IMG/VR virus record: IMGVR_UViG_3300032296_000087
Span: 1-27,600 of that record
Reading direction: 5' to 3' (one strand)
Source of the DNA: a virus
Length of the DNA: 27,600 nt
Shown: one piece after another, positions 6,512-22,976 of the stretch
Position numbering within the stretch: position 1 is the stretch's first letter
Layout: each line of letters begins with the position of its first letter
The notes under the pieces: generated by a model
What the model was told of the DNA's origin: nothing
Seen by the model: the letters and a program-made list of their open reading frames with translations, nothing else
Database searches by the model: none
Made by a program: the position numbers and the translations under genes

Positions 6512-6538
6512 TTTTTAAACTTTATCAAGGAGACTCAC

Positions 6539-7261: not shown

Positions 7262-7274
7262 AAGGAGATGATTT

Positions 7275-8210: not shown

Positions 8211-8211
8211 T

Positions 8212-8243
8212 TTATTTGCAAATTAACAAATAAGTCGTATAAT
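8212..8243 (+). promoter_or_regulatory. Sigma70-like promoter P1 with inverted repeat before the -10
   Basis: TATAAT stands at 8238-8243. A weak -35 (TTGCAA, 8216-8221) lies 16 bases upstream. A perfect 7-bp inverted repeat, TTATTTG (8212-8218) and CAAATAA (8227-8233), ends four bases before the -10. The block GTATAATTTTTC recurs exactly at the third promoter (24918). It would drive the 8271 gene and the capsid genes after it. Confidence 0.65.
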
Positions 8244-8270
8244 TTTTCCAATCGCTGAAAGGAGCGAGTA

Positions 8271-8801: not shown

Positions 8802-8830
8802 CGAAACCTTTTAATCCAATAGGAGCATCT

Positions 8831-9424
8831 ATGTCTTCGACTAGCGCACCATTTGGCTTTCGTGCTTCTTTCCACAACAGTGGTCAGATGCGCCCAAAAG
8901 CCTATGTAATCGCGAGCACCTATGCGGCTAACATTTTTAGCGGTGATCCCGTTAAGTTAACCGACAACGGTGTAATTCAACTAGGTACTTCGGACGGTAC
9001 TCGTTCTGGTACTACAGATGGCGTTTCTTTGCTGGGCATCTTCGCAGGTGTACAGTATTTGGACGCTACTGGTAAACCAACGATCTCCCCATTCTGGCCT
9101 TCTGGCACGACTGGTACAGAGATCACTGCATGGGTCTATGATGATCCTGAAACACTGTTTGATGTTCAGTACAACAACCCCTCCGCTGGCACAACCGTTC
9201 AAACGGCTGTTGGTGAAGAGTGTGATTGGACTGTGGCCTCGCCCGGTGGCTCGACCCAAACAGGTTTGTCCAACACTTACCTGACCGCCATTCAAGCCAC
9301 TTCTGGTCAATTCCAGATCACTGGCTTTGGATATGAAATCAACGACTCCCTCACTGACGCTTATGTTGTTGTGACTGTTCGTATCAACGAACACCACTAC
9401 AAAGCCGCAGTGAACTCGGTTTAA
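8831..9424 (+). CDS. Probable head decoration or minor capsid protein
   Basis: The 197-aa product lies just before the major capsid gene, with AGGAG upstream. It is rich in Thr, Gly and Ser with beta-type alternation: APFGFRASFHNSG at the start, NIFSGDPVKLTDNGVIQL and LLGIFAGVQY in the middle, and a C-terminal TDAYVVVTVRINEHHYK. Small all-beta proteins in this position commonly decorate the capsid surface in tailed phages. I recognise the general pattern from environmental phages but cannot tie it to one characterised decoration family. Confidence 0.6.
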   Translation: MSSTSAPFGFRASFHNSGQMRPKAYVIASTYAANIFSGDPVKLTDNGVIQLGTSDGTRSGTTDGVSLLGIFAGVQYLDATGKPTISPFWPSGTTGTEITAWVYDDPETLFDVQYNNPSAGTTVQTAVGEECDWTVASPGGSTQTGLSNTYLTAIQATSGQFQITGFGYEINDSLTDAYVVVTVRINEHHYKAAVNSV

Positions 9425-9437
9425 GGAGGGCTAAATT

Positions 9438-10352
9438 ATGGCTACCCCAATGCGTAGTACGGACTTTCGATCCGTTGTTGAGCCAATCCTGAACGAAGTC
9501 TTTGACGGCGTTTACAATCAGCGTGCTGATGAATGGAAGATGGTTTTCCGTGAGCAAAAAGGCATTCCTCGTAATTACCACGAAGAACCCGTCTTGTACG
9601 GTTTCGGCGCGGCTCCCGAGTTGCCTGATGGCATGGCAGTAAGCTACCAATCTGGTGGCGTATTGTTCTTGCAACGCTACCTCTACAAAGTCTACGGTTT
9701 GGCATTCAGCTTGACCAAAGTCTTGGTTGAGGACGGTGATCACATCCGTATCGGTCAGACCTATGCCAAACACTTGGCACAGTCACTGATTGAGACTAAG
9801 GAAACCCTTGGCGCTAACATCCTGAACCGTGCTTTCAACAGCGCGTACACAGGTGGTGATGGCGTATCTTTGGTTAACACATCTCACCCAATCGTGAATG
9901 GCACTTTCAGTAACCAGCTTACTACTGCCGCCGCTCTTTCACAAACTTCTCTTGAGCAGTTGCTCATTCAGATTCGTAACGCTGTTGACAACAACGGCAA
10001 GCGTATCCGCTTGACTCCTACCAAGATCGTGTCTGGCCCATCTAATGTGTTCCAAGCCGAAGTTCTGTTGAAGAGTGTGTTGCGTACAGGCACTGCTGAC
10101 AACGACATCAACCCTGTTAAGTCCATGGGCTTGCTGGCTGATGGTCAAGCTAACTTGTCTCGTATCACATCAACCACTGCATGGTGGATTGAGACTGATG
10201 CGCCAGAAGGCTTGAAGTTGTTGATGCGCCGTGGTTTGGAAAAGTCTATGGAAGGTGACTTCGAGACTGATTCAATGCGCTACAAGGCCACCGAGCGTTA
10301 TACTTTCGGTTGGACTGATCCTCGCGGTATTTATGGTACAGCGGGCGTTTGA
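9438..10352 (+). CDS. Major capsid protein, HK97-like fold (Mu gpT-like)
   Basis: This 304-aa protein would form the icosahedral shell. AAGGAGG precedes the ATG. Features match the Mu-gpT-like coat group: an N-terminal helix (RSVVEPILNEVFDGVYN), a central KETLGANILNRAFNSAYTGGDGVSLVNTSHP passage, where N-x-L-N-x-A-F, DG and HP are typical, a long alpha helix (SLEQLLIQIRNAVDNN), then P-domain-like strands (GKRIRLTPTKIVSG) and a C-terminal YTFGWTDPRGIYGTAG. There is no N-terminal protease or delta domain. Codon use is T/A-ending, there are no CCCGG sites in the gene, and third positions show no G-to-C switch. A strong hairpin follows the stop. Confidence 0.85.
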   Translation: MATPMRSTDFRSVVEPILNEVFDGVYNQRADEWKMVFREQKGIPRNYHEEPVLYGFGAAPELPDGMAVSYQSGGVLFLQRYLYKVYGLAFSLTKVLVEDGDHIRIGQTYAKHLAQSLIETKETLGANILNRAFNSAYTGGDGVSLVNTSHPIVNGTFSNQLTTAAALSQTSLEQLLIQIRNAVDNNGKRIRLTPTKIVSGPSNVFQAEVLLKSVLRTGTADNDINPVKSMGLLADGQANLSRITSTTAWWIETDAPEGLKLLMRRGLEKSMEGDFETDSMRYKATERYTFGWTDPRGIYGTAGV

Positions 10353-10373
10353 TCTTTAACTAAAGTATCAAGT

Positions 10374-10399
10374 GAACACTCTCCGCAAGGGGGGTGTTT
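10374..10399 (+). terminator. GCAA-tetraloop hairpin after the capsid gene
   Basis: The arms 10375-10384 (AACACTCTCC) and 10389-10398 (GGGGGGTGTT) pair over ten positions including two G-U pairs, closed by the GNRA-type loop GCAA. Only a short T run follows, so it may be a leaky terminator or a 3' stabiliser for capsid mRNA. Confidence 0.55.
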
Positions 10400-10419
10400 G
10401 CTGGGCACATTTAATCCAC

Positions 10420-10466
10420 GCGCAACAGACGGCACGCCCTTGCCGACGACATGCAGACGGTTGCGC
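10420..10466 (+). other. Structured spacer with nested inverted repeats
   Basis: Outer arms GCGCAAC (10420-10426) and GTTGCGC (10460-10466) are perfect complements. Inside them CGGCA (10430-10434) and TGCCG (10441-10445) pair around a six-base loop. CAGACGG occurs twice (10426-10432 and 10454-10460). The element lies between the capsid hairpin and the ribosome site of the next gene and could be a leader RNA fold. No known RNA family is recognised. Confidence 0.35.
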
Positions 10467-10490
10467 ATCACTTGCATGTAAGGAAACATC

Positions 10491-11093
10491 ATGGCAACAA
10501 CCACATTCACAGGCCCAGTAGTATCACTCAATGGTTTTGAAACTGGCACTTCATCTTCTCCCCTTGCTGTAACTACTGCGGAAAACATTAACGCCGCATA
10601 CGCAACGACATCTGCCACAACAGGCGATACTCGTTTGACTTATAGCAAACTAACATTTACATCAACAGGCTCTGGTGAAACGCTTCGCGCTTTCTCTGTG
10701 GTGACTGGAACTGGTGCGGCTACAGCGGGCACAATCAATGGTGCGCACATTTCTTGCGAAGTTAATGGCTCTTCTGCCACAATTTCTGGCGCGGCTAATG
10801 CGATTCGTGCGACTTTGGGTGGCACGGATGCGACCCCGGGCGGCACACTCGCTGTCATCCAGCTCGACACCAACTACACCGTCAACGCAACTTTGCCCGC
10901 TACAGCCTCGTTCATCCGAGTGTCTGACAGCGGCACAAACACTGGCGAAGTTCCTTTGTTGATGAACATTGAAACCGCTCCTGCGGCAACAATTGCACCA
11001 ACTGCAACATCAGTTACCACTGTGGCTAAAGCAGTCAAAGTGATGATTGGCGGCACAGTCTATTACATCCCTGCTTACGCTACATTCAGCTAA
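10491..11093 (+). CDS. Probable structural (capsid-associated) protein
   Basis: The 200-aa product starts MATTTFTGPVVSLNGF and ends GGTVYYIPAYATFS, ends shared by a group of small virion proteins I recall from environmental phages. The body is Thr/Ala/Gly/Ser-rich with beta alternation and no Cys pair, membrane span or catalytic motif. AAGGA precedes the ATG. Its place right after the capsid protein suggests a second decoration or vertex protein. Third positions switch from G/T-ending to C-ending at CCCGGG 10835. Confidence 0.6.
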   Translation: MATTTFTGPVVSLNGFETGTSSSPLAVTTAENINAAYATTSATTGDTRLTYSKLTFTSTGSGETLRAFSVVTGTGAATAGTINGAHISCEVNGSSATISGAANAIRATLGGTDATPGGTLAVIQLDTNYTVNATLPATASFIRVSDSGTNTGEVPLLMNIETAPAATIAPTATSVTTVAKAVKVMIGGTVYYIPAYATFS

Positions 11094-11094
11094 T

Positions 11095-11274
11095 ATGCAA
11101 ATCACTAAAGAATTTCTGGAAGCAGAGATTTCTGATTTGCAAAATGAAGTTAGGAAGGCTGAAACCTTCCTGCTTCAAGCGCAAGCCACAATCAGTGCAT
11201 ACCAGATGTTAATCAGGCGTTTAGACGCGCCTGAAGTGGTTGAAACAACTGAAACAGGAGAACAAAATGGCTGA
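11095..11274 (+). CDS. Small coiled-coil protein, 59 aa
   Basis: The frame starts MQITKEFLEAEISDLQNEV and is predicted almost wholly helical, ending in an acidic tail (EVVETTETGEQNG). I chose ATG 11095, one base after the upstream stop, over 11047, which would overlap the previous gene by 47 bases. No clear ribosome site is visible, so re-initiation after the preceding gene is likely. The stop overlaps the next gene by eight bases. Short helical proteins of this pattern are frequent in phage structural blocks; the function is not known. Confidence 0.62.
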   Translation: MQITKEFLEAEISDLQNEVRKAETFLLQAQATISAYQMLIRRLDAPEVVETTETGEQNG

Positions 11275-11683
11275 TGCTGTAGCTTCGCAAACGATCCTCG
11301 ATGGCGAGAGATTGTTTATTGGTAAATTTACAAACATTTCTGATGGCACTGGCGAGACTGGTGTTATCAAGATTGATGTTTCCACACTAAGCCCTAACGC
11401 CGCTGGCAATGCTTGCAATGGCGTGAAGCTCAATAAGATTTATGCAACAACATTTGGTATGGAAGTTCGCATTCTTTGGGATGCGTCAACTGATGTCCTT
11501 GCTTGGATGCTTCCTACAAATTCAAACTACCTGATGGACTTGTCATCTTTTGGTGGTATTCCAAACAACGCTGGCGCTGGTGTAACTGGTGATGTGCTGT
11601 TTACCACCACAAACGCCGCCGCTGGCGACATGTACACAATCGTTCTTGAGTGCATCAAGACATACGCAAACCCACAAGGATAA
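11267..11683 (+). CDS. Small virion-type protein of unknown function, 138 aa
   Basis: I chose ATG 11267 (MADAVASQTILDGERLF), preceded by AGGAG, rather than the in-frame 11240, which has no ribosome site and overlaps more. The product is beta-rich: LFIGKFTNISDGTGETGVIKI, then KIYATTFGMEVRILWD and a C-terminal YTIVLECIKTYANPQG. It resembles small structural proteins in marine and freshwater phages, but no fold or assay is known to me. Neighbours are capsid-side genes, so a virion role is likely. Confidence 0.6.
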   Translation: MADAVASQTILDGERLFIGKFTNISDGTGETGVIKIDVSTLSPNAAGNACNGVKLNKIYATTFGMEVRILWDASTDVLAWMLPTNSNYLMDLSSFGGIPNNAGAGVTGDVLFTTTNAAAGDMYTIVLECIKTYANPQG

Positions 11684-11686
11684 GTC

Positions 11687-12073
11687 ATGGCAAAAATGAA
11701 ATATGTCAAAGATTTTGACTTCAGCGAGAAGCCTTGCAACTACGAGAGTGGTGGCCCTGCCATGAAAATGGCTAAGGGTGGCTACGCTAAGGGTGGCATG
11801 AAAGAAGCCAAGACAGGCGAGATGTACGCCAGCCGCAAGGAAATGGCAAAGCATGAGCGCACTGAATCACCACGCATGCAAAAAGAAGAGATGATGCAGT
11901 CTCGCACTGAGAAGAACATTGGCCCTCGTGGTGGTCAAGGCATGATTCCTCCTGCCCAAAAGGGTTTAGGTATCACTGCTCCTCGCCGCCAGATGCCAGT
12001 TGCACCTCGTGAGCCTATGATCTCCCCCATGAAAAAGGGTGGCAGGGCAGTGAAAGCAAAAGTTAATTGTTAA
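11687..12073 (+). CDS. Basic protein with repeated KGG tags
   Basis: The 128-aa product is strongly basic and Met/Gly-rich with low complexity. KGG occurs at 30-32, 35-37 and 117-119 (MAKGGYAKGGMKEAK; MKKGGRAVKAK), and RGG near 81. The same KGG-plus-hydrophobic tags occur four times in the large protein at 1-4035. There is no folded domain, signal peptide or membrane span. Candidate roles are DNA-binding inside the head or a cargo tag, both inferred only from charge and context. It is the last gene before promoter P2. The neighbouring stop and start are three bases apart. Confidence 0.6.
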   Translation: MAKMKYVKDFDFSEKPCNYESGGPAMKMAKGGYAKGGMKEAKTGEMYASRKEMAKHERTESPRMQKEEMMQSRTEKNIGPRGGQGMIPPAQKGLGITAPRRQMPVAPREPMISPMKKGGRAVKAKVNC

Positions 12074-12103
12074 GTTGTTTTTTCTGACTTAATAAACTAT
12101 AAT
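12070..12103 (+). promoter_or_regulatory. Sigma70-like promoter P2 with inverted repeat before the -10
   Basis: TATAAT at 12098-12103 has TTGTTT at 12075-12080 with a 17-base spacer. A perfect inverted repeat TTAAGT (12070-12075) and ACTTAA (12087-12092) ends five bases before the -10 and overlaps the preceding stop codon. TATAATTTTC downstream resembles P1 and P3. Confidence 0.65.
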
Positions 12104-12120
12104 TTTCGTCAATAAGAGCG

Positions 12121-12133
12121 TGCTGGATCAGCA
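12121..12133 (+). promoter_or_regulatory. Leader hairpin TGCTG-gat-CAGCA
   Basis: A perfect 5-bp palindrome with a three-base loop, expected about ten bases inside the P2 transcript. The core TGCTGnATCAGC recurs after P3. It could stabilise the 5' end of the mRNA or be a protein-binding site. Confidence 0.45.
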
Positions 12134-12161
12134 AGCATCCTGACTACAATGCGGGGTTAGC

Positions 12162-13142
12162 ATGGCTTTTTCTGGTAATGTGAGCGGCACTACATTTAAT
12201 GCGCTGAAAGTCGTAGATCACGCTTTCAGGCGCTGTAGACTGCCTGCTCAAGCCATATCAGGCGAGATGCAAAGCTATGCGCTCGAATCCCTCTACTTGC
12301 TTTTGTCAGAATTGGCGAATATTCGTACACCTAGCTGGTGTATTGACTATGTAATCTTGCCAATGTACCAAAATCAGCAGATTGTGACCCTTCCTTTGGG
12401 TACTGTTGATGTGCTGAACTTGAATTATCGTCAAATTCAGCAGGTATCTGGTGCGACGACCATCACTTCCACTGCGTACACCGTAAATTTCACCACTGCG
12501 ACCACTGTAGACACAATTGGTATCAAGTGGGGAGCGGCGGCTGTGCCAGTTACCTTCCAAGTTAGTGCAGATGGCTCGTCATGGACGACTGTGGGCACGC
12601 AATCAACGACAGCGGCGGCTGGTGAGATTGTTTGGACTGATATTTCAGGGGCTTTGCCTTACCAATACTTCAGATTCACCTCAACTTCGACGATGACGCT
12701 CACGCTAGTGACGATGGGCAATCTGCCACAAGAGATTCCTTTGGGTGTGCTCAATCGTGATGGGTATGTGAATCAGAGCAACAAGGTGTTCCCCGGTCGC
12801 CCAGCGTCCTTCTGGTATCAACGCGACCTCCCACGCCCAGTCGTCAACCTCTGGCCCGCCCCCGCAGACTACGCTGAGCTTGCTCAGTTAGTGCTCTGGA
12901 GACACCGCCAGATCATGGACACAGAGAACCTTCAACAAGATGTGGAAGTGCCTCAGAGATGGCTACAAGCAATTGTGGATGGGCTTGCCGCTAAGGTTGC
13001 CGCAGAGACTCCAGCAGTAGATGTGGCGCTGATACCTATGCTAGAGCAAAAGGCGGCGATGAGCGTGCAGAGAGCGTGGGATGGGGACAATGATGGGTCG
13101 TCGATCCAGATTAACCCGGGCATTGGGGTCTACACCAAATGA
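12162..13142 (+). CDS. Head-completion/adaptor protein (gp4-like) with inserted beta domain
   Basis: Adaptor proteins of the P22 gp4 type bind under the portal and lock packaged DNA. In this 326-aa protein the first ~85 residues are helical (LKVVDHAFRRCRLPAQAI, LYLLLSELANIRTPSW), and the last ~140 hold FWYQRDLPRPVVNLWPAPADYA and PQRWLQAIVDGLAAKVAAETP, typical of such adaptors. Between them, at about 105-187, lies a stretch resembling an F5/8 C (discoidin-like) carbohydrate-binding module: GIKWGAAAVPVTFQVSADG, SWTTV, GEIVWTDI, PYQYFRF. Third positions flip at CCCCGG 12791, and the gene ends beside CCCGGG 13115. It is the first gene of the P2 transcript. The stop overlaps the next start (ATGA). 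Confidence 0.7.
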   Translation: MAFSGNVSGTTFNALKVVDHAFRRCRLPAQAISGEMQSYALESLYLLLSELANIRTPSWCIDYVILPMYQNQQIVTLPLGTVDVLNLNYRQIQQVSGATTITSTAYTVNFTTATTVDTIGIKWGAAAVPVTFQVSADGSSWTTVGTQSTTAAAGEIVWTDISGALPYQYFRFTSTSTMTLTLVTMGNLPQEIPLGVLNRDGYVNQSNKVFPGRPASFWYQRDLPRPVVNLWPAPADYAELAQLVLWRHRQIMDTENLQQDVEVPQRWLQAIVDGLAAKVAAETPAVDVALIPMLEQKAAMSVQRAWDGDNDGSSIQINPGIGVYTK

Positions 13143-13441
13143 GCCTCTTCCTAGACCCAACAGGCGAAGCGACTTATGGCATTGCGATCTGCGCACGCTG
13201 TTCGCGCAAGTTCCTGATGGCAGAGTTGCAGAGCGACCCGAATTACCCGGGGCTAATGGTCTGCGCCGAAGATGTCGACGACTACGATCCCTACCGCCTC
13301 GCACCTCGCGCACCTGATAAAATCATATTGCCCTTTAACCGCCCTGACACTCCTGTCAACACCCGCCCTGCTGGTGTGATTCAAGAAGCAGGCGACGAGT
13401 TCTTCATCACTGAAGACGGTAATAGCTATTTGGAGTTTTAA
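13139..13441 (+). CDS. Partial zinc-ribbon phage protein, 100 aa
   Basis: Near the start is CARC (C18, C21), then NYPGLMVCAED (C42, D45), giving a Cys2...Cys-x2-Asp arrangement like small phage zinc ribbons in which the fourth ligand is replaced. The rest is acidic and Pro-rich (DDYDPYRLAPRAPD, FNRPDTPV). The start ATG overlaps the previous stop and the stop abuts the next ATG, so it is translated within the tail block. A role in head-tail joining is inferred from position only. Confidence 0.6.
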   Translation: MSLFLDPTGEATYGIAICARCSRKFLMAELQSDPNYPGLMVCAEDVDDYDPYRLAPRAPDKIILPFNRPDTPVNTRPAGVIQEAGDEFFITEDGNSYLEF

Positions 13442-15460
13442 ATGTCTGATGTCCCAAGTAATCTAATACCAACGCGCATCACGCAGTTACCTGTCGCTCC
13501 TGTGGCTGACGAAAACAGCCTGATGATGATCGTCTATCAGGGCAACAATTATCAAATCCGTGTTGGTGATCTGCTCAGCGTTGCAGGCGTGCCCACAAGC
13601 ACCCAAGTGATCGCAGGCACTGGCATGACTGGTGGTGGCGCTCTGACAGGCAATGTAACCCTGAGCATCGCTAACGGTGGCGTTGGTTCCACGCAGTTAG
13701 CCGCTTCTGGCGTAACTTCTGGTGTTTATGGCAATTCAACAAACATTCCAATATTTACTGTTGACAGCACAGGTCGCGTAACTGCGGCTACCACTGTGCC
13801 TGCAACTATCTCAGGCTATGTGCCTACAAGCACACAGGTGATTGCTGGAAATGGTTTGACAGGTGGTGGACTTCTAAGTAGTAATGTCACCTTAGCCGCA
13901 AGCTATAGCGCTACTGCGCCAGAGTCTGGCTTCCAAGCTGGCTCAGCAGGCGTTGCAAACACCCTTGCCCGAAGCGATCACAAACACCCTGCTGTTGACT
14001 TGTCTGCTGATGATGAAGTCGACAACATACTTGGTTTAGGCAACGGTGGCACAGCTCGGAGCTTAGTGCCCGAGGCTGGCGCTATTGTCTGGTCAGGCGC
14101 TGATGGCCTCTACATTGGCCCTTCTGGTCTTGCTGGTCAAGTTCTTGTGTCTGGTGGCACTGGTGAGCCTACATGGGGTTCTGCGCTGTTAGTTGTGGAT
14201 CAGCCTGCCAATGTGGTCTACGCTGGCCCAACTGCTGGCCCTGATGCGCCTACTTCTTTCCGCACATTGGTCAATGCAGACCTGCCAGCCTCTGGCGTAA
14301 CTGCTAACACCTATGGCTCGTCCACTGCAATCCCTGTGGTGACCGTGAACTCTAAAGGTGTGATCACAAGCGTCACAACTGCAAGTTTCACTGGTGGCCT
14401 GTCTTATCAGGGTTCATGGAATGCGTCGACTAACACGCCTACACTTACTTCTAGCACAGGCACAAACGGTTATTACTACATCGTTTCCGTTGCTGGCTCG
14501 ACAAACCTTGATGGCATCACTGACTGGCAAGTTGGCGATTGGGCTATCTTTAATGGCTCCACATGGCAGAAGATCGACCAGACTAACTTGGTCAGTTCTG
14601 TTAACGGTCAGACTGGCGTTGTCAGTATTGCTTATGCAGACTTGGCTGGCTCTATCCCCACATGGGCAATTGCAAACGGCGGCACTGGTCAGACTACAGC
14701 TTCTGCGGCGTTCAATGCTTTATCACCCATCACCACAACTGGTGACCTGATTATTGGCAATGGCACAAACAGCGCCACCCGTTTGGCTATTGGCGCTAAC
14801 GGCTATTTGTTATCGTCTAACGGCACAACTGCCTCATGGCAACCAGCTCCTGCTGGTGGAGTAACTACTTTTGACGCAGGAACTACAGGCTTTACTCCAA
14901 GCACTGCAACCTCTGGAGCAATCTCCTTAGCTGGAACCCTTGTTGTGAGTAACGGTGGTACTGGTGCAACCACATTGACAGGCTATGTCAAAGGCACTGG
15001 AACATCTGCGCTGACAGCGTCCTCTACCATTCCAAATACAGACATCTCTGGTTTGGGAAGCATGTCTACACAGAATGCAAACTCTGTAACTGTGACTGGT
15101 GGAACAATTAACGGTACGACTGTTGGGGCGACAACAGCGGCGGCAGGCACATTTACAGATTTAACTGTAAACGACAATTCAACCTTTGGTAGCAGTAACG
15201 CTGACACCATAAATTTTGTTGGGCGTGTAAACTCTGATTTTGATCCTGCAACAGATAACACTTATGACCTTGGTAGAACAGGACATGAGTGGCGCAATTT
15301 GTATTTGACAGGCACAGGCAACATTGACAGTTTGATTGCTGACACAGCAGACATCAACGGTGGCACTATTGATGGCACGGTAATCGGTGGCGCATCAGCG
15401 GCGGCTGGAACCTTTACGACTGTGGTTGCAACGAGTGGCATCTCTGGAGGCACATTCTAA
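13442..15460 (+). CDS. Tail fibre protein
   Basis: A 672-aa fibrous protein, Gly/Thr/Ser/Asn-rich. VIAGTGMTGGG and VIAGNGLTGGG form a repeated unit near residues 55-150. ARSDHKHPAVD follows, then a module at about 318-400 (YQGSWNASTNTP, WQVGDWAIFNGSTWQKID) met in many fibres. Collagen-like fibre repeats include IANGGTGQTTASAAFNAL. The C-terminal part has two related units, GGTINGTTVGATTAAAGTF and GGTIDGTVIGGASAAAGTF, flanking NTYDLGRTGHEWRNLYL. It ends abruptly in SGISGGTF without an autocatalytic chaperone domain or receptor tip, so a separate tip protein, perhaps one of the glycine-rich proteins, may complete it. It overlaps the next gene by one base (TAATG). Confidence 0.78.
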   Translation: MSDVPSNLIPTRITQLPVAPVADENSLMMIVYQGNNYQIRVGDLLSVAGVPTSTQVIAGTGMTGGGALTGNVTLSIANGGVGSTQLAASGVTSGVYGNSTNIPIFTVDSTGRVTAATTVPATISGYVPTSTQVIAGNGLTGGGLLSSNVTLAASYSATAPESGFQAGSAGVANTLARSDHKHPAVDLSADDEVDNILGLGNGGTARSLVPEAGAIVWSGADGLYIGPSGLAGQVLVSGGTGEPTWGSALLVVDQPANVVYAGPTAGPDAPTSFRTLVNADLPASGVTANTYGSSTAIPVVTVNSKGVITSVTTASFTGGLSYQGSWNASTNTPTLTSSTGTNGYYYIVSVAGSTNLDGITDWQVGDWAIFNGSTWQKIDQTNLVSSVNGQTGVVSIAYADLAGSIPTWAIANGGTGQTTASAAFNALSPITTTGDLIIGNGTNSATRLAIGANGYLLSSNGTTASWQPAPAGGVTTFDAGTTGFTPSTATSGAISLAGTLVVSNGGTGATTLTGYVKGTGTSALTASSTIPNTDISGLGSMSTQNANSVTVTGGTINGTTVGATTAAAGTFTDLTVNDNSTFGSSNADTINFVGRVNSDFDPATDNTYDLGRTGHEWRNLYLTGTGNIDSLIADTADINGGTIDGTVIGGASAAAGTFTTVVATSGISGGTF

Positions 15461-15804
15461 TGGTAGAAGAACTCATAAACCGAATGTTCAAGGCGCGTAA
15501 CGCCGCGCACATCAGACATTGGAAAACCGACAGTTACTCAGAGCACAAAGCTCTAGGTCACTACTACGACGACCTGATCGATAATCTAGACAAGTATGTC
15601 GAAGCCTACCAAGGTGGGTTTGGACTTATTGGCGAGATCGAAGGAAGCGTGGAAAACACGACAAAAATGATTCACGACGATATAATTTGGATGACTGAGA
15701 ATCGTGAAAAGATAGCCAAAAATGTGCCTGCGCTAGAGAACATCATTGATGAACTCACGGGCTTGCATATGAAGACTTTGTACAAACTTGAGAATTTGAG
15801 GTAA
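15460..15804 (+). CDS. Ferritin/Dps-like small phage protein
   Basis: The 114-aa helical protein contains ARNAAHIRHWKTDSYSEHKA and GHYYDDLIDNLDKYVEAYQG: H17, H20, H29, H34, D37, D38, D41 and E48 are spaced as in short ferritin-like phage proteins, where His/Asp/Glu side chains can hold metal. The second half is a further amphipathic helix pair (DIIWMTENREKIAKN, IIDELTGLHMKTLYKL). It is shorter than bacterial Dps (~165 aa), so only part of the four-helix bundle is present unless it dimerises. It lies inside the fibre gene block, coupled by TAATG to the fibre gene. Iron storage or protection is plausible but unproven. Confidence 0.55.
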   Translation: MVEELINRMFKARNAAHIRHWKTDSYSEHKALGHYYDDLIDNLDKYVEAYQGGFGLIGEIEGSVENTTKMIHDDIIWMTENREKIAKNVPALENIIDELTGLHMKTLYKLENLR

Positions 15805-15808
15805 CACT

Positions 15809-16126
15809 ATGGCGGCTTCAGGCTTTACACCTATTCAGCTTTATCGCACGACGACAGGGGCGGCTGTGCCGTTGGCGGCTAACTTGTTGCCGGGCGAGCT
15901 TGGCTTCAACATCGCCGACACCGATATGGCGTTGTACGCTGAAAACGCATCAGGCACTGTCACCCGCATCATGAACAACCCTGCTGGCCTAAAGTACCCC
16001 ACCGCTGATGGCTCAGCAAATCAAGTCATTCAAACTGATGGCGCTGGCAACCTCTCTTTTGCAACTCCATCGGCTGGTGCGACCAAAGGTCAAGCTATTG
16101 CCTTTTCACTTATTTTCGGTCTGTAA
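15809..16126 (+). CDS. Short fibre-type structural protein, 105 aa
   Basis: The N-terminus PIQLYRTTTGAAVPLAANL, followed by LPGELGFNIADTDMALYAEN, is a common opening of phage fibre or appendage proteins. The second half has SANQVIQTDGAGNLSF, another fibre motif, and the end is a short hydrophobic stretch. It is far too short to be a full fibre and may be a base or capping piece. GAGGT precedes the ATG. A G-to-C third-position flip surrounds CCGGG at 15890. Confidence 0.6.
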   Translation: MAASGFTPIQLYRTTTGAAVPLAANLLPGELGFNIADTDMALYAENASGTVTRIMNNPAGLKYPTADGSANQVIQTDGAGNLSFATPSAGATKGQAIAFSLIFGL

Positions 16127-16135
16127 GGAACCACC

Positions 16136-16507
16136 ATGGCAAATCCAAATATTGTTAATGTCACCAGCATTGTTGGTAACTCGCTCTCTGTTGCTGTAGG
16201 CACAAGCGCAACTCAACTAGCCTCAAACGCCGCATCGAGCAATAAGGTCTTCAAGATCAACTCGATTGTGGTTGCTAACATTGATGGCACATCTGCGGCT
16301 GACATCACAGTGAACATTTACTCTGCGGCGGCTTTAGGTGGAACAGCAATTGCGATTGCTTCGACTATTTCAGTCCCACCAGATGCTTCGTTAATTGTGA
16401 CTGATAAGACGACTACATTCTATTTGCTTGAGAATCAATCAATTGGCGCAATTGCAAGTGCGGCTGGTGACTTGGTTGCAACGATTAGCTTTGAAGAAAT
16501 CACCTAA
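16136..16507 (+). CDS. Small structural protein of the MANPNIV-type family
   Basis: The 123-aa product starts MANPNIVNVTSIVGNSLSV, continues SNKVFKINSIVVANIDGTSA with beta alternation, then VPPDASLIVTDKTTTFYL and a closing DLVATISFEEIT. I recall this pattern as a small virion-associated protein in marine cyanophages and pelagiphages. AAGGA precedes the ATG. It is probably part of the tail appendage; no enzymatic motif is visible. Confidence 0.6.
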   Translation: MANPNIVNVTSIVGNSLSVAVGTSATQLASNAASSNKVFKINSIVVANIDGTSAADITVNIYSAAALGGTAIAIASTISVPPDASLIVTDKTTTFYLLENQSIGAIASAAGDLVATISFEEIT

Positions 16508-16519
16508 TCGGAGGTTCTT

Positions 16520-17398
16520 ATGGGACTTCGATATACGGGCGGGATTCTCTCTGCTGGTTTAAACGGCATTAACTACCCTGTCACATCGGTGGAATACCTT
16601 GTCGTGGCTGGCGGGGGTGGTGGTGGTCATGCCCAAGCGGGTGGCGGTGGTGCGGGTGGTTTGTTAACTGCTACAGGGCTTTCTGTTGTTATTGGAACTG
16701 CGTACACAATAACAATTGGTGCTGGAGGTGCTGGTTCTACATCAACTGCCAATGGAGTAAATGGTTCTAATTCTGTTTTTAGCTCCATAACCGCAACGGG
16801 CGGTGGTGGTGGTGGTAGTGGTAGCGGCTCCGCTGGATCGGCTGGGGGTTCTGGTGGCGGCGGCGCGTACACTTCAGCCCCCGCTTCAAACGCAGGAGGC
16901 GCTGGTACTTCTGGACAAGGGAATGCAGGAGGCGCTGGTTTTACAAATAATTCTACTTATGCTAACGGCGGTGGCGGTGGCGGTGCAGGGAGCGTTGGCA
17001 CTAATGGAACTAATGGTATTGGCCCTGCTGGTAATGGTGGTACAGGTTTAGTTTCTAGTATTAGTGGCTCACAAATTCAATACGCTGGTGGAGGTGGGGG
17101 CGGCGCATATCAAGGGTCAACTTCAAACACACCCGGTCTTGGTGGTGGCGGTGGAGGCGGTTCAAGTTCTGCATTTACAACAGCATTTTCTGGATTAAAT
17201 AACACTGGCGGTGGCGGTGGTGGTGGAAGTGTTGTTGCTGGAGTATTTTCTGGCGGCGCAGGCGGCTCTGGCATCGTAATCCTACGCTACCCATCTTACT
17301 TAGCCCCTGCTACATCTACGACAGGCAGTCCTGAAATGGTTGTTACTGGTGGATGGCGCGTATACACATTTGTTGCATCTGGAACAATTACATTCTGA
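16520..17398 (+). CDS. Glycine-rich adhesin-like protein 1, one domain
   Basis: A 292-aa protein whose leader GGILSAGLNG precedes the domain starting VEYLVVAGGGG at residue 24. The domain alternates poly-Gly runs with short beta segments (AYTITIGAGGAG, SNSVFSSITATGGG) and holds the shared GTSGQGNAGGAG tag, then GGSGIVILRYP and a tail ending VASGTITF. Poly-Gly proteins with this look act as receptor-binding tips in T-even phages (S16 gp38), where Gly runs form type II helices. It is closely related to the gene at 19095 in both leader and tail. GGAGG precedes the ATG. Confidence 0.72.
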   Translation: MGLRYTGGILSAGLNGINYPVTSVEYLVVAGGGGGGHAQAGGGGAGGLLTATGLSVVIGTAYTITIGAGGAGSTSTANGVNGSNSVFSSITATGGGGGGSGSGSAGSAGGSGGGGAYTSAPASNAGGAGTSGQGNAGGAGFTNNSTYANGGGGGGAGSVGTNGTNGIGPAGNGGTGLVSSISGSQIQYAGGGGGGAYQGSTSNTPGLGGGGGGGSSSAFTTAFSGLNNTGGGGGGGSVVAGVFSGGAGGSGIVILRYPSYLAPATSTTGSPEMVVTGGWRVYTFVASGTITF

Positions 17399-17404
17399 GG
17401 ATAT

Positions 17405-19093
17405 ATGGCACAAGGTATTTTTACACTCAGACAAGTTAACCAAGCCATTCGTCAAGGCGCATGGTCAGCATTTAATCCACCTCAGTGGGTGGAGTATCTT
17501 TGCGTTGCTGGTGGTGGTTCTGGTGGTGGGAATATATCAACTGTCGCATTGACTGGCGGAGGCGGGGGCGGTGCTGGTGGTTTGTTGACGGGAATAAGTC
17601 CAGTGACTGCTGGTTCTTCTTACACTGTGACTGTAGGCGCTGGTGGTACAGGGTCATCTAGCGCCCAAGGAACTTCTGGTGTTAACTCTGTATTTGGTTC
17701 TATTACATCTACTGGCGGCGGTGCTGGTGGTAATCAGCCACCTTCTGGAACCACTGGTGTTACTGGATTGTCTGGCGGTTCAGGTGGTGGTGGTAGTTCT
17801 ACTAGCGCATTAGACCCCGGCCCCGCTGGTTCTGGCACTAGTGGTCAAGGTAATGCTGGCGGAACAGGAACTTACACATCTAGTGCTTATGGCGGTGGCG
17901 GTGGTGGCGGTGCTGGGACAGTTGGCTTAAATGGAACAAGTGCTATTGGGGGCAACGGCGGCGCAGGTATTGCTTCTGCTATTACAGGAACTGTAACTAC
18001 TTACGCTGGAGGTGGCGGTGCTGGCACATACACCGCTGGAACATTAGGGGTAGGCGGTGTTGGTGGCGGGGGGAATGCCGCAAGGGGTGGTACATCAGGT
18101 AGCGGAACCGTTAATACTGGCGGTGGTGGTGGTGGTAATGGTGGTACTACAACGGCAACGGCTGGCGGATCAGGCGGTTCAGGCATCGTAGTAGTCAGAT
18201 ACCCCGGCTCTGTGCAGTTTTACACTGGTGGAATAGTTTCCGCTAATGGCGGGTATGTCATACATACATTTACATCTTCTGGAACATTGGCTCCTACTAC
18301 GCCAACTCCCGCAACAACAAATGTTTTTGTGTTTACTAGTTCTACAGTATGGATTGCACCAGCGGGTGCTACGCAAGTTGAATACTTGGTTGTTGCTGGT
18401 GGTGCAGGCAGTGTTCAAGGTTTTGGTGAAGGTGCGGGTGGTGGCGGAGCAGGTGGATTCAGAACAGCCACAGGACTATCTGTAACTGCTGGAACAGCTT
18501 ACACGGTGACGGTAGGTGCTGGCGGTGCTGGCTCTACTTCTATTAGTGCTCAATACGGAGGTTCTGGAAGTAACTCTGTATTTTCTTCCATAACATCTGG
18601 AGGTGGCGGTAGCGGTGCTTCTGGGTCAAATGGAAATGGAATAGGTCAAGCTGGCGGGTCAGGCGGTGGTGGTGGGCCAATTTCAACTGGAACTGGCGGA
18701 TCAGGCAATAATCCATCAACATCACCAAGCCAAGGTAATAATGGCGGAGATAGTTTTAGCACTGGCGCGTTTGCTGGTGGTGGCGGCGGTGGAGCAGGGG
18801 CAGTTGGCGGTACTGCCACGGCAGTTCAAGCAGGTAATGGTGGAAATGGTTCTGCCGCAACCGCAAATCTTGGTGGCGCAACTTATGCAGGTGGTGGAGG
18901 TGGTGGCGCGTATTACGCAACAGTTGCTCAAGGTATGGGTGGTACTGGCGGCGGCGGTAATGGTTCTAATTACTTAGGTGGTTATGGAGCAACATCTGGA
19001 ACAGACAACACAGGTGGCGGCGGTGGCGGCGGTGCTAATGGCAGAATTCCCGGCAACGGCGGCTCTGGCATTGTGATTATTAAATGGAGTTGA
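17405..19093 (+). CDS. Glycine-rich adhesin-like protein 2, two domains
   Basis: A 562-aa protein with a different leader (MAQGIFTLRQVNQAIRQGAW). Domain A begins VEYLCVAGGGS at residue 29, and domain B begins VEYLVVAGGAG at residue 325. The linker is FTSSGTLAPTTPTPATTN, then a WIAPAGATQ strand before domain B. Domain A has GTSGQGNAGG; domain B has SPSQGNNGG instead. The end is GGSGIVIIKWS. The same leader type, two-domain plan and ending recur in the gene at 20866, so the two are paralogues. The GAGGAT ribosome site starts within the previous stop. A role in host binding is inferred. Confidence 0.72.
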   Translation: MAQGIFTLRQVNQAIRQGAWSAFNPPQWVEYLCVAGGGSGGGNISTVALTGGGGGGAGGLLTGISPVTAGSSYTVTVGAGGTGSSSAQGTSGVNSVFGSITSTGGGAGGNQPPSGTTGVTGLSGGSGGGGSSTSALDPGPAGSGTSGQGNAGGTGTYTSSAYGGGGGGGAGTVGLNGTSAIGGNGGAGIASAITGTVTTYAGGGGAGTYTAGTLGVGGVGGGGNAARGGTSGSGTVNTGGGGGGNGGTTTATAGGSGGSGIVVVRYPGSVQFYTGGIVSANGGYVIHTFTSSGTLAPTTPTPATTNVFVFTSSTVWIAPAGATQVEYLVVAGGAGSVQGFGEGAGGGGAGGFRTATGLSVTAGTAYTVTVGAGGAGSTSISAQYGGSGSNSVFSSITSGGGGSGASGSNGNGIGQAGGSGGGGGPISTGTGGSGNNPSTSPSQGNNGGDSFSTGAFAGGGGGGAGAVGGTATAVQAGNGGNGSAATANLGGATYAGGGGGGAYYATVAQGMGGTGGGGNGSNYLGGYGATSGTDNTGGGGGGGANGRIPGNGGSGIVIIKWS

Positions 19094-19094
19094 A

Positions 19095-19997
19095 ATGAGT
19101 CAAACTTTATTAGGTGGATTCCTTTCCGCAACCTTTAACCCACTGTCTGGTACAACTACCGCAGTTGAATATTTAGTGGTTGCTGGTGGAGGTGGTGCTG
19201 GCGGTGGTGGCGGAGGAGCAGGTGGTCTTTTGACTGCGGCTGGTTTTTCTGTTGCGGCTGGTTCTGCTTTAACTGTGACCGTGGGTGCTGGTGGTGCTGG
19301 TGGTACTTATGCAAGTGGCGCAGTTAGTAATGGAGTCAGTGGTAGCAATTCTGTTTTTAGTTCTATTACCTCTATTGGTGGTGGTTATGGTGGTGGCCCA
19401 AATAGCACTACTAACGGCGCTTCTGGCGGATCAGGTGGTGGCGGTAGCCAAGATGGTAGCGGGAGCGGATCAACTGGAGGCGCTGGAACATCTGGTCAAG
19501 GCAATGCTGGTGGTGGCTCTGGTGGGGTTTACCCGCCCGGTTACTTTGCCGCAGGCGGTGGTGGTGGCGCAGGCTCTGTTGGTGGAAATTCATTAGTAGT
19601 TTCTTCTGGCTCTTTGGGTGCTGGTGGCAATGGTGGAACTGGGTTTTGCTCAACCATTACGGGTGCAAGAGTCTTTTACGCTGGAGGTGGCGGTGGTGGT
19701 TCTAGTACAAACACATCCACTTTAACTACTGGTGGACTTGGTGGAGGCGGTGGCGGGGGTAATGGTGGTTTAGCTCCTTCGCAGTCTGGCATTTCTGGTA
19801 CTGCAAATACAGGTGGAGGTGGCGGTGGTGGAGAATTTGAATCATCTTTTGGCGGTAATGGTGGTTCTGGAATTGTCATCATTCGTTATCCTCAATCTTT
19901 ATTACCACCTACTTCCACAACAGGAAGCCCTCAGATAAACTACTCTGATGGGTATCAGATTTACACTTGGACATCTTCTGGCACTATTACTTTTTAA
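19095..19997 (+). CDS. Glycine-rich adhesin-like protein 3, one domain
   Basis: A 300-aa paralogue of the gene at 16520: the leader GGFLSATFNP matches GGILSAGLNG, the domain starts VEYLVVAGGGG at residue 24, it keeps GTSGQGNAGGGSG, and the tail (TSTTGSPQINYSDGYQIY, ending SSGTITF) lines up with TSTTGSPEMVVTGGWRVY. Its start follows the previous stop by one base, with a TGGAGT ribosome site inside the upstream gene. The order one-domain then two-domain is repeated here, apart from the two genes inserted after it. Confidence 0.72.
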   Translation: MSQTLLGGFLSATFNPLSGTTTAVEYLVVAGGGGAGGGGGGAGGLLTAAGFSVAAGSALTVTVGAGGAGGTYASGAVSNGVSGSNSVFSSITSIGGGYGGGPNSTTNGASGGSGGGGSQDGSGSGSTGGAGTSGQGNAGGGSGGVYPPGYFAAGGGGGAGSVGGNSLVVSSGSLGAGGNGGTGFCSTITGARVFYAGGGGGGSSTNTSTLTTGGLGGGGGGGNGGLAPSQSGISGTANTGGGGGGGEFESSFGGNGGSGIVIIRYPQSLLPPTSTTGSPQINYSDGYQIYTWTSSGTITF

Positions 19998-20006
19998 GGA
20001 GCAAAC

Positions 20007-20357
20007 ATGAGCCATTTCGCTAAAGTAGAAAACGGTGTAGTGACGCAAGTCATCGTCATCGAAAAAGCAGTTCTTGACCTTGGTCACTGGGGCGACCCAG
20101 CATCTTGGGTTCAAACTTCATACAACACTTCTGGTGGAGTTCACTCGCAAGGTGGTACGCCACTGCGTAAGAATTACGCGGGTGTTGGAATGTTGTATGA
20201 CGGTGTAGGTTTCTATGCCCCACAGCCTTTTCCAAGCTGGACTAAAAACGAAGCCACATACCATTGGGAAGCCCCAACGCCTATGCCCGTAGTTGAAGGT
20301 AAGCGCTTTAGCTGGGATGAGCCAACATTGTCATGGGTTGAAATTACAATCGCGTAA
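20007..20357 (+). CDS. Small fibre-associated phage protein, 116 aa
   Basis: AAGGAG precedes the ATG. The product starts MSHFAKVENGVVTQVIVIE and contains DPASWVQTSYNTSGGVH, PLRKNYAGVGMLYDGVGFY and a Trp-rich end (PFPSWTKNEATYHWEAP, SWDEPTLSWVEI). I know this pattern as a short protein recurring beside fibre genes in cyanophages and other environmental phages; its job is not established. It separates two glycine-rich genes. Its stop is followed one base later by the homing endonuclease ATG. Confidence 0.65.
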   Translation: MSHFAKVENGVVTQVIVIEKAVLDLGHWGDPASWVQTSYNTSGGVHSQGGTPLRKNYAGVGMLYDGVGFYAPQPFPSWTKNEATYHWEAPTPMPVVEGKRFSWDEPTLSWVEITIA

Positions 20358-20358
20358 T

Positions 20359-20856
20359 ATGCCAAGAAAAGCGTTGCCATTGCCGTCAATAGAATTGCTT
20401 CATTCTCTGTTTGTTATAGAGGATGGCGTTCTATTGAACAAAGTTGACCGCAAAATGGTCAAAGCTGGTCAACGATCTGGTTGTGAAAAAGATGGATACA
20501 TCTGGGTCAAAGTTAATAGTCAGCGGTATTCTGCTCACCGTTTAATTTTCCTAATGCACCACGGCTATTGCCCTGAATATGTTGACCACGTTGATGGCAA
20601 CGGTTTAAACAACCATATTGAAAATTTACGCCCAGCTACGTTATCTCAAAACAAAGCAAACCAATCCGTATACAGCAATAATATGTCTGGTGTAAAAGGC
20701 GTTTATTGGTGTCAACCCAAGAACTCATGGGTTGCCCAAATTGGTTTCAATAATCGGCGCAGAACATTAGGCACGTTTGCAACCAAAGATTTGGCGGCAG
20801 AATTTATTGCTTTAGTTCGTGAAGAATTACACGGGCAGTTTGCTCGTCACGCATAA
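20359..20856 (+). CDS. HNH homing endonuclease with AP2 DNA-binding domain
   Basis: HNH/AP2 enzymes cut DNA and spread their own gene by gap repair. The 165-aa product has an HNH core: AHRLIFLMHHGYCPEYVDHV, with DHVDGNGLNN and NLRPATLSQNKANQS following. Then comes an AP2-type domain, SGVKGVYWCQPKNSWVAQIG with NRRRTLGTFATKDLAAEFI. I chose ATG 20359 rather than 20293, which would overlap the previous gene by 65 bases. There is no visible ribosome site. The gene stands alone between adhesin-related genes and interrupts no reading frame I can see, so it is a free-standing mobile gene; codon use is more A/T-rich than its neighbours. Confidence 0.82.
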   Translation: MPRKALPLPSIELLHSLFVIEDGVLLNKVDRKMVKAGQRSGCEKDGYIWVKVNSQRYSAHRLIFLMHHGYCPEYVDHVDGNGLNNHIENLRPATLSQNKANQSVYSNNMSGVKGVYWCQPKNSWVAQIGFNNRRRTLGTFATKDLAAEFIALVREELHGQFARHA

Positions 20857-20865
20857 GGAATTATC

Positions 20866-22590
20866 ATGCCCCCTCAATACAGTGGAATGTGGACGCTAAG
20901 TCAAGTAAGTCAAGCTGTAAAAGACTTGAATTGGACGGGCATTCCTCCGTCTGTTGTTGAGTATCTAATTGTTGCTGGTGGTGGCGGCGGCGGTAGTGAC
21001 GGCTCAGGAATTCAACAGACGGGCGGCGGTGCTGGTGCGGGTGGATTGCTTGCTGGTTACGCTGGCCTCACATTAGGCGCTTCTTACTTTGTAACTGTAG
21101 GCGCTGGCGGCACTGCTTCATTGGGAGCCACATCTACTAATGGTGGAAACTCTGTTTTTGATGCCACATCTTCTGCGGCTACTACAGGGCGTATTGTTGC
21201 AACTGGCGGTGGCTACGGCGGAAGATACGGACAAGTTGGTAACTCTGGTGGTTCTGGGGGCGGGGCAGGTTCTACTGGTTTGACTGGTTCTGCGGGAACT
21301 TCTGGCCAAGGAAATGCCGGTGGAAATTCCAATACTGGCGGTTATCCAAACCTTGCTTCAGGCGGCGGTGGGGGAGCAGGGACTATTGGGCTAAATGCAA
21401 ACAATGGTAACAATGCTGGCGGTAACGGCGGTGCGGGTATTGCAAGTTCAATTAGCGGGGCAGTAACTGCATACGCAGGCGGTGGTGGCGGTGGAAACTA
21501 TTCCGCTGGAACTGCTGGCGCATCGGTTGGTGGTGTTGGCGGTGGCGGTGCAGGTGGTATTTATTCTGGAAGTGTTGACCCAATAGCTGGGACAGCAAAT
21601 ACTGGTGGCGGTGGCGGAGGCGGATCAAACGGCAGGGCTGGAGCTACAGGCGGTTCAGGCGTTGTCATTCTTCGCTACCCCGGCTCAATTCAATATTTTA
21701 CTGGTGGCACAGTAACTTTAAGTGGCATTAACCCAAATGGTTCTTTTGTTGTCCACACATTTACTTCTTCAGGTACTTTAGCGCCAACTACACCTATAAA
21801 TTTAGCAACAATAGCTCCAGCAAATACAACAATTTTTTATTCATCAGGCGTTTGGGTTGCCCCTGTTGGCGCTACACAGGTTGAATACTTGGTGGTTGCT
21901 GGTGGTGGTGGTGGGGGCGGTAGACGAGGCGGTGGTGGTGGCGCTGGTGGATACCGTACAGCCACAGGTTTATCGGTTACTGCGGGAACTGCTTACGTAG
22001 TTACGATTGGTGCTGGAGGAAATGGCGGCAATGGTGGTGGCGGTGCGGCTGTAACTGGAACAAGCGGTGCTAATTCAATATTTAGTTCTATTACTGCAAC
22101 TGGCGGCGGCGGCGGCGGCGGCGATGGAAACGCAACATACGGCGTTGGGTTAAATGGCGGTTCTGGTGGCGGAGGTTCTGGCTATGCTGGAGGCTCTGCA
22201 TCTCCAAGCGGTCAAGGCAATAATGGTGGCGCAGGAAGCAACTCACCATCAAATTATGGTGGCGGTGGCGGTGGTGGAGCATCTGCCGTAGGTGTGGCTG
22301 GAACAACAACTACTGGCGGTAATGGAGGCGCTGGTACTGCATCTTCTTTGTCAGGAGCGTCTACTACTTATGCAGGTGGTGGCGGTGGCGGTACTTATCA
22401 AGGCGGGACTGCTGGTACTGGAGGTGCTGGTGGTGGCGGTGGCGGTGGGACTGGTGGAACGGATAACAACGGAACTGCTGGAACTTTTAACACAGGTGGG
22501 GGCGGTGGAGGCGGTTCTATTCAGTCGGATACATCCAACAGAGGTGGCGGTAATGGCGGCTCTGGCATCGTAATCATCAAGTGGAGCTAA
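20866..22590 (+). CDS. Glycine-rich adhesin-like protein 4, two domains
   Basis: A 574-aa paralogue of the gene at 17405: the leader WTLSQVSQAVKDLNW matches FTLRQVNQAIRQGAW, domain A starts VEYLIVAGGGG at residue 31, the linker FTSSGTLAPTTPINL leads to WVAPVGATQ, domain B starts VEYLVVAGGGG at residue 339, and it ends GGSGIVIIKWS. Domain A carries GTSGQGNAGG; domain B carries SPSGQGNNGG, as in the paralogue. AAGGA precedes the ATG. It is the last of the glycine-rich set, directly before the lysis genes. Confidence 0.72.
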   Translation: MPPQYSGMWTLSQVSQAVKDLNWTGIPPSVVEYLIVAGGGGGGSDGSGIQQTGGGAGAGGLLAGYAGLTLGASYFVTVGAGGTASLGATSTNGGNSVFDATSSAATTGRIVATGGGYGGRYGQVGNSGGSGGGAGSTGLTGSAGTSGQGNAGGNSNTGGYPNLASGGGGGAGTIGLNANNGNNAGGNGGAGIASSISGAVTAYAGGGGGGNYSAGTAGASVGGVGGGGAGGIYSGSVDPIAGTANTGGGGGGGSNGRAGATGGSGVVILRYPGSIQYFTGGTVTLSGINPNGSFVVHTFTSSGTLAPTTPINLATIAPANTTIFYSSGVWVAPVGATQVEYLVVAGGGGGGGRRGGGGGAGGYRTATGLSVTAGTAYVVTIGAGGNGGNGGGGAAVTGTSGANSIFSSITATGGGGGGGDGNATYGVGLNGGSGGGGSGYAGGSASPSGQGNNGGAGSNSPSNYGGGGGGGASAVGVAGTTTTGGNGGAGTASSLSGASTTYAGGGGGGTYQGGTAGTGGAGGGGGGGTGGTDNNGTAGTFNTGGGGGGGSIQSDTSNRGGGNGGSGIVIIKWS

Positions 22591-22592
22591 CC

Positions 22593-22688
22593 ATGTGGGA
22601 CTGGGTCGAAGCATTTATTGCGGCGACTCTTTTAGTTGCCTTTGTGTTGTTTTGCTCTTACATCATTGCATGGAGTTGGGCGTGGTAA
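22593..22688 (+). CDS. Tiny membrane peptide, 31 aa
   Basis: MWDWVEAFIAATLLVAFVLF continues into CSYIIAWSWAW: one acidic turn, one transmembrane segment and a Trp-rich end. GGAG lies seven bases before the ATG. Its stop is immediately followed by the next ATG (TAAATG). It is the first gene of the lysis region, so a small holin, antiholin or holin-modulating peptide is possible. Function not shown by sequence. Confidence 0.55.
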   Translation: MWDWVEAFIAATLLVAFVLFCSYIIAWSWAW

Positions 22689-22976
22689 ATGCGTTGGCTC
22701 ATACTGTTACTGCTGTTAGGGCTAGTTGGAGCCGTAGCCAAGAATGGCTGTTATGTGCGCGAGTTCTATGGCATAGGCTACACAATCCACAACCCATCCG
22801 AGCGCCATCAGCAGATGATTGCTTGGCTAAAAAACAATGCACCTCATTGCAAATCAGAAGATTATGTATTGATTTGGAACAACTTGCCTATGTGGGCAGG
22901 TACAGCAGACTCGGCAGAAACTAGGGCGTTGATTATCCATGGATACCAACAAGCAATTGAGCGAGAGAAGAAATGA
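22689..22976 (+). CDS. Exported protein of unknown function in lysis region
   Basis: The 95-aa product starts with a signal-like MRWLILLLLLGLVGAVAKNG, with cleavage plausible after AVA. The mature part has CYVREFYGIGYTIHN, ERHQQMIAWLKNNAPHC (two Cys that could pair) and VLIWNNLPMWAGTADS. No known hydrolase or spanin signature is visible. The Cys at 21 lacks a proper lipobox, so it is probably not a lipoprotein. It is coupled on both sides: stop-start adjacency upstream and ATGA overlap downstream. Family members beside phage lysis genes are familiar to me but uncharacterised. Confidence 0.6.
   Translation: MRWLILLLLLGLVGAVAKNGCYVREFYGIGYTIHNPSERHQQMIAWLKNNAPHCKSEDYVLIWNNLPMWAGTADSAETRALIIHGYQQAIEREKK

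Follow-up and report, generated by a model that had tools for sequence, protein, structure and literature searches.

Four glycine-rich genes of an uncultured tailed phage as a probable allele of an exchangeable tail-adhesin cassette

The window, the whole stretch of DNA analysed here, is an entire IMG/VR virus record of 27,600 bases that is classed as linear and is possibly a fragment. It carries four glycine-rich genes, A to D, which follow a short anchor gene (g16136), with two further genes between C and D (Table 1). Window genes upstream match portal and head families; downstream, the matches are to an endolysin and to proteins of the tail or virion. Among named phages, the nearest found are Caulobacter phage RW and three similar ones, with whose portals that of the window shares 52% identity. 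In five uncultured MAGs, six loci hold relatives of the portal (46-51% identity), three of the six in betaproteobacterial bins, which is a weak hint at the host. In the tail module, immediately upstream of the cassette discussed below, a gene for a small protein (15460-15804) matches DUF5856 at 67.2 bits, above a cut-off of 34.6, and also phrog_858, annotated as 'starvation-inducible transcriptional regulator'; this protein is 89-96% identical in 18 of the 65 loci found, across differing cassettes.

Table 1. Genes, domains and other features of the cassette region (window positions).
Feature	Position	Strand	Remark
Anchor gene g16136, 123 aa	16136-16507	+	Opens the exchanged block, whose upstream boundary lies at the 5' end of this gene
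Gene A, 292 aa, type I tip and one glycine-rich domain	16520-17398	+	PF21722, 95.5 bits
Tip of A (type I), presumed docking segment	16520-16588	+	Conserved with the A genes of L186, L245 and L099
Glycine-rich domain A1	16589-17290	+	
Gene B, 562 aa, type II tip and two glycine-rich domains	17405-19093	+	PF21722, 163 bits
Glycine-rich domain B1	17489-18202	+	Groups with B1 of L186 and L245
Glycine-rich domain B2	18377-19087	+	
Gene C, 300 aa, type I tip and one glycine-rich domain	19095-19997	+	PF21722, 62.9 bits
Glycine-rich domain C1	19164-19889	+	
Gene X, 116 aa, phrog_7759 protein	20007-20357	+	phrog_7759, E 6e-26
HNH endonuclease gene, probable homing-type insertion	20359-20856	+	HNH_3, 49.9 bits (cut-off 24.8)
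Gene D, 574 aa, type II tip and two glycine-rich domains, apparently chimeric after D1	20866-22590	+	PF21722, 146.8 bits
Glycine-rich domain D1	20956-21678	+	Groups with D1 of L186 and L245
D2 part: B-type linker and second domain (domain 21880-22584)	21679-22590	+	Absent from D of L186 and L245

The reading frames of A to D are open and end where an earlier sequence-only reading of this DNA had placed them. Its count of six copies of one domain also holds, since the motif VEYL(V/C/I)VAGG occurs once, twice, once and twice in A, B, C and D, and the four genes take up 18.8% of the window, close to the fifth it had estimated. All four proteins belong to PF21722 (Gly_rich_2; curated cut-off 24.3 bits) and match phrog_2295; both are families at the level of the domain, and membership does not cover an exchangeable multi-gene cassette. 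The likeness among the domains exceeds mere glycine content, because the similarity scores of the 15 domain pairs lie 14 to 29 standard deviations above composition-preserving shuffles. Most of the top matches in BFVD are a 'Glycine-rich domain-containing protein' of uncultured phages. A tblastn search of a phage collection returned nothing for A and two short weak matches for B; the low-complexity filter was probably responsible, and the search is uninformative on relatives.

An AlphaFold2 monomer model of A built from 29 sequences (pLDDT 88.1, pTM 0.85), which supersedes an earlier one from nine sequences (pLDDT 61.1), predicts a glycine-rich lattice fold; residues 1-18 fall below pLDDT 50 and the remainder is confident. 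Its best structural match is a tail-tip chain of phage Bxb1 (9d93_Qa; Z 14.1, 173 residues, 3.5 Å), followed by the fibre of phage Pam3 (7ypx; VIA-align Z 13.7, 172 residues, rmsd 2.8 Å), with the next best at Z 5.3. By sequence alone, A matches the Pam3 fibre weakly (E 0.02-0.03). We treat A to D as putative adhesins, whose location in the virion is suggested by their neighbours and by this predicted fold.

Homologues of the anchor gene lie upstream of adhesin genes in 145 of 294 loci, the window included. Where the contig continues, the anchor is mostly followed by 2-4 genes with recurring tip types, namely type I (such as MSMRY..GFISA), type II (such as MP.YSGVWTL) and a fused type III; these types, like the head classes below, were defined by our own patterns. 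The claim that one such gene is usual was thus mistaken: 2-4 adhesin genes are common where the slot can be read in relatives, and several adhesins per cassette are ordinary in this phage group. An expanded receptor-binding repertoire is plausible, and several glycine-rich genes per genome do not alone imply recent expansion. Across relatives, the heads in the slot are glycine-rich, RCC1 (as in L097), fn3 with TRGxFAGG repeats (L085), SPRY with DUF7483 (L214), Lcl_C (L166) and others. The TRGxFAGG repeat looks like a propeller by eye; Pfam gave just fn3.

In 15 contigs (L085-L099), the product of the gene at 12162 is 93-99% identical to that of the window. Glycine-rich heads occur in L088, L090 and L099, RCC1 heads in L095, L096, L097 and L098, and TRGxFAGG heads in L085, L089, L091 and L092, while L086 and L087 break off too soon for the heads to be read and L094 is cut in the first gene (fn3, then a partial glycine-rich match). 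Over most of 8858-16164, L085 and the window share 90-93% identity, with gaps between the aligned pieces and one 491-base piece at 84%; between 16165 and 22591 nothing in L085 matches at E 1e-10, and from 22592 to 22817 identity returns, at 88%. Upstream homology stops at 16164 in L085, L097, L096 and L247, at 16166 in L094 and L098 and at 16140 in L095, and persists through the anchor gene to 16474 in L091, L092, L089 and L249. Downstream it resumes at 22588 in L249, 22592 in L085 and 22688 in L245. Backbones that are 87-97% identical thus flank different adhesin sets with sharp breaks, as far as can be read from contigs that are mostly fragments and metagenome assemblies. L099 retains homology to gene A up to 16732 and again from 17250, with none in between, so the glycine core can also diverge by itself.

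Several other arrangements occur at the slot. In L093, whose backbone is 92% identical over window positions 4997-10538, a single gene of 1190 residues (10789-14361) replaces the multi-gene cassette, and its start resembles that of the gene at 15809. The slot B protein of L088/L245 (9908-13132, 1074 aa) joins a glycine-rich domain to SPRY and DUF7483 and so forms a natural hybrid between two classes of head. In L247, L251, L097 and L106, the RCC1 adhesins have as a neighbour a gene that begins with MNKTLHFLSGIPRSGSTVLAAILNQN or a variant thereof; it is sulfotransferase-like by eye only, and in L251 it lies between two adhesin pairs. Adhesins of the Lcl_C type, an assignment checked with Pfam for two L166 proteins only, come two or three per cassette in L166 (9382-11726), L168, L169, L175-L178 and L180. 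These cassettes show a strongly variable C-terminal stretch (WSSTE...VRAIRR), which resembles retroelement-diversified binding domains. A diversity-generating retroelement was therefore considered as their source; a search of 12 records, each of them linear by class, many short and possibly incomplete, turned up no reverse transcriptase (PF00078).

The two genes between C and D had been taken as extra, and they differ in kind. The one at 20359 looks like an insertion: it is a free-standing gene with an HNH catalytic domain (its AP2 match, at 24.7 bits, is under the cut-off of 33.3), and it is present at this site in the window and L186 and missing there in L245 and L232, so that a homing-type insertion is probable from sequence comparison. 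Gene X is a recurrent cassette member, with homologues in 38 of the 294 loci, several of them between the adhesin genes of other cassettes; compared with PDB sequences as a possible gp25- or Tfa-like chaperone, it gave no credible match (best E 0.51).

Endonuclease genes seem to gather at the cassette. A search with cassette-derived queries placed nine of ten matches inside it, a figure biased by the choice of query. A Pfam search of 50 records gave four HNH_3 and seven GIY-YIG matches, of which four and four, respectively, lie at the cassette by our own coordinate conversion (8/11). Two of these records, L095 and L204, were included because they were known to hold an endonuclease; without them, six of nine lie at the cassette (binomial p 0.003 if the cassette makes up 20% of the sequence, with cassette length summed over 47 of the remaining 48 records). 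This enrichment fits endonuclease-driven conversion and is suggestive only. In L228 (3629-4192), L204 (2913-3473) and L242 (9378-9938), a GIY-YIG gene lies at the upstream edge of the cassette, some 380 bases downstream of where the anchor gene starts.

Gene D looks chimeric. In L186 and L245, D stops after one domain and has a tail of the A/C kind, whereas D of the window departs from these relatives where D1 ends, and a B-type linker and a second domain, likewise B-type, follow. Over its first 60 columns, this continuation is 77% identical in amino acids to B of L186 and 63% to the window's own B. Copying of a two-domain B into a two-domain D is therefore not the simplest history, and the one-two-one-two pattern would in part reflect a later transfer of a domain.

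The slots themselves can be followed across contigs. The four-slot gene order recurs in L186, with the HNH gene, and in L088/L245 without it, and L251 has the tip order I-II-I-II too, with RCC1 heads. When A and C proteins from five contigs are aligned, they form two classes with their own tips and tails (..RVY.. in A, ..YQIY.. in C). The B1 domains of the window, L186 and L245 group together (0.888; SH-aLRT 81), as do their D1 domains (0.962; SH-aLRT 93), and since these clades span contigs, the slots would be older than the divergence of the window, L186 and L245. In the FastTree analysis, a clade of 10 (local support 0.796) takes in the first domains of both A and C, and a clade of 6 (0.455) those of both B and D; the A and C domains are not cleanly separated within their common clade, and the second domains are placed elsewhere. 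Support for the domain trees is weak, with a star on 1 of 29 inner branches in the treekit tree. A single clade of all six window domains is rejected (AU p 0.0002). The best distal match of A is A of L186, and that of C is C of L088; B matches D of the window best, and D matches B of L186.

Within a cassette, the heads tend to share one fold. The 145 anchor loci reduce to 101 distinct loci with at least one gene of recognised tip and class, 68 of which have two or more. Genes of one locus have the same class in 120 of 135 pairs, against a mean of 26.6 and a maximum of 44 in 2000 within-position permutations, and 60 of the 68 loci are uniform, a count that dropped genes with a tip and no class and so favours uniformity. 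Thinning, by 70% slot-1 identity only, removed only closely similar loci; after it, 113 of 128 pairs shared a class and 55 of 63 loci were uniform. A class-free recount, which retained some false tips, covered 78 loci (of the 145, 16 lacked a tip gene, 23 were duplicates and 28 had a single gene) and found related heads in 126 of 174 pairs within loci versus 3368 of 19726 between loci. Its 22 loci with any unrelated pair read by eye as truly mixed in 10 cases and as carrying a false tip in 12. Since mixed cassettes exist (8 of 68 in the class-based count, L176 by way of a doubtful fourth gene), fold uniformity is a tendency.

Some of this uniformity stems from common descent. For the well-sampled classes, we do not favour concerted evolution within genomes as its cause, since a gene's best distal match is mostly found in another contig: matches in the same contig number 6 of 34 for GLY, 0 of 47 for KEL, 4 of 38 for RCC1, 1 of 11 for CLEC, 1 of 11 for LAM and 4 of 10 for GLYb. 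The figures of 3 of 3 for YPW and 2 of 2 for RNKY come from classes found in one thinned locus each.

Taken together, we think it probable that A to D are one allele of an exchangeable tail-adhesin cassette (16136-22590) of an uncultured tailed phage, built of docking tips and lattice heads and swapped as a block. At the N-terminus, 20-30 residues form a tip (of type I in A and C, of type II in B and D) that would dock on the tail; one or two lattice domains follow, whose variable loop ends may touch the host receptor, as in Pam3. In relatives, the block appears to be replaced between sharp boundaries by genes with the same tip types and heads of another fold, usually one fold per set. Recombination, perhaps aided by homing endonucleases, would swap the cassettes and thereby change host range. 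A broader proposal, to which we give roughly even odds, is that such cassettes are homotypic: different docking tips carry a common head fold, the set is inherited as well as exchanged as a block, and a lineage, with head and tail genes that remain 87-97% identical, jumps between whole classes of receptor-binding architecture (glycine lattice, RCC1, TRGxFAGG repeat, Lcl_C, SPRY/DUF7483), with conversion possibly driven by the homing endonucleases that the cassette has gathered.

The sequence-only reading had explained the four genes by tandem duplication of a two-gene unit in this lineage, which expanded the receptor repertoire and was followed by insertion of two genes. We consider this history unlikely, although part of it stands. 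The tips do pair A with C and B with D, and AU tests reject none of A1+C1 (p 0.464), B1+D1 (p 0.39) and B2+D2 (p 0.623); no tree that breaks up these gene pairs was obtained, though the trees leave the pairing itself undemonstrated. Third positions at shared four-fold codons agree more than expected in B2/D2 (0.51 versus 0.37 ± 0.04), far from identity. However, the other 14 of the 15 domain pairs are near saturation (0.33-0.46 observed versus 0.35-0.41 expected, most slightly above expectation), so any duplication of the pair would be ancient, and this near-expected agreement leaves recent tandem duplication or gene conversion inside the window unsupported. The presence of the same four slots in L186 and L088/L245, the one-domain D of relatives and the recurrence of gene X in other cassettes also speak against a recent event. 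The pair may have been duplicated long ago, before these phages diverged, in line with the I-II-I-II order of L251. Exchange of a whole set with a mostly shared fold is the stronger and more interesting result.

Two other readings concern the heads. Matching heads could reflect nothing more than common descent and duplication in an ancestral cassette, with neither block exchange nor selection for matching folds. Inheritance would place best distal matches mostly in other contigs, as seen in the well-sampled classes, and the thinning took out only closely similar loci. Yet descent of the backbone does not explain head class, because nearly identical backbones bear different classes between sharp breaks, and the mixed cassettes show that mixing can happen; we regard this reading as doubtful. 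Still less probable, in our view, is a role for the glycine-rich proteins in virion decoration, packing or another structural task rather than receptor binding. The lattice fold is also shared by the animal receptors ALK and LTK (Z about 5 against the A model), but A to D sit between tail-type genes, the fold of A matches a phage tail fibre and a phage tail tip, and relatives fill the same slot with other folds that are likely to bind. The exchangeable adhesin cassette thus remains our preferred reading. With multiple fold alleles at one slot in many metagenomic contigs, it offers a natural allelic series in which one can ask how a change of binding fold affects host range, and why the heads within one phage should match.

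Among known systems, the fibre gp24 of the myocyanophage Pam3 (PDB 7ypx, 7yfw) has the same glycine-rich lattice fold as the model of A (Z 13.7 and 13.2) and a similar length (chains of 280 and 289 residues versus 292). According to the available part of PMC9608196, its glycine-rich domain has a conserved stem and a hypervariable tip proposed to bind the receptor, and Pam3 has a single fibre gene, whose product carries a helical bundle at its N-terminus, with gp25 as a chaperone. The window has four fibre-like genes, and no gp25-like chaperone gene was recognised in it. The Pam3-type bundle is absent from the monomer model of A, in which the tip of 20-30 residues has no helix; we therefore class A to D as sharing the Pam3 head fold only, not as Pam3-type fibres. 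The mycobacteriophage Bxb1 chain (PDB 9d93 Qa/Qb) that matches A best belongs to the tail tip. In the portion available of PMC13243795, polyglycine 'brush' domains sit at the C-terminus of hub proteins, whereas those of the window belong to free-standing proteins of several genes. The T4-like adhesin gp38 of Salmonella phage S16 (PDB 6F45) is a glycine-rich receptor-binding lattice that attaches to gp37, again in the available part of PMC9608196. No gp37 counterpart was recognised in the window, and 6F45, whose fold has a beta-helix and a polyglycine domain, is not among the structural matches listed for the A model, with which kinship to gp38 is still compatible.

PMC12906663 was set aside as a source on RCC1, since in the part available the term stands for algal strain numbers. 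We found no literature on multi-gene, one-fold adhesin sets exchanged as a block within the limited collection and terms searched. The closest parallel is in near-identical Bacillus V4 phages, in which, in the part of PMC10674732 available, one tail-fibre gene is replaced and about 50 N-terminal residues are conserved. A conserved N-terminus with a replaced distal part is common to both systems; there, a single gene changes, whereas here it is a set of 2-4 genes of mostly uniform fold. Phage tail-adhesin modules and fibre replacement are known, and what seems new is the apparent replacement, as a unit, of a multi-gene set that mostly shares one fold.
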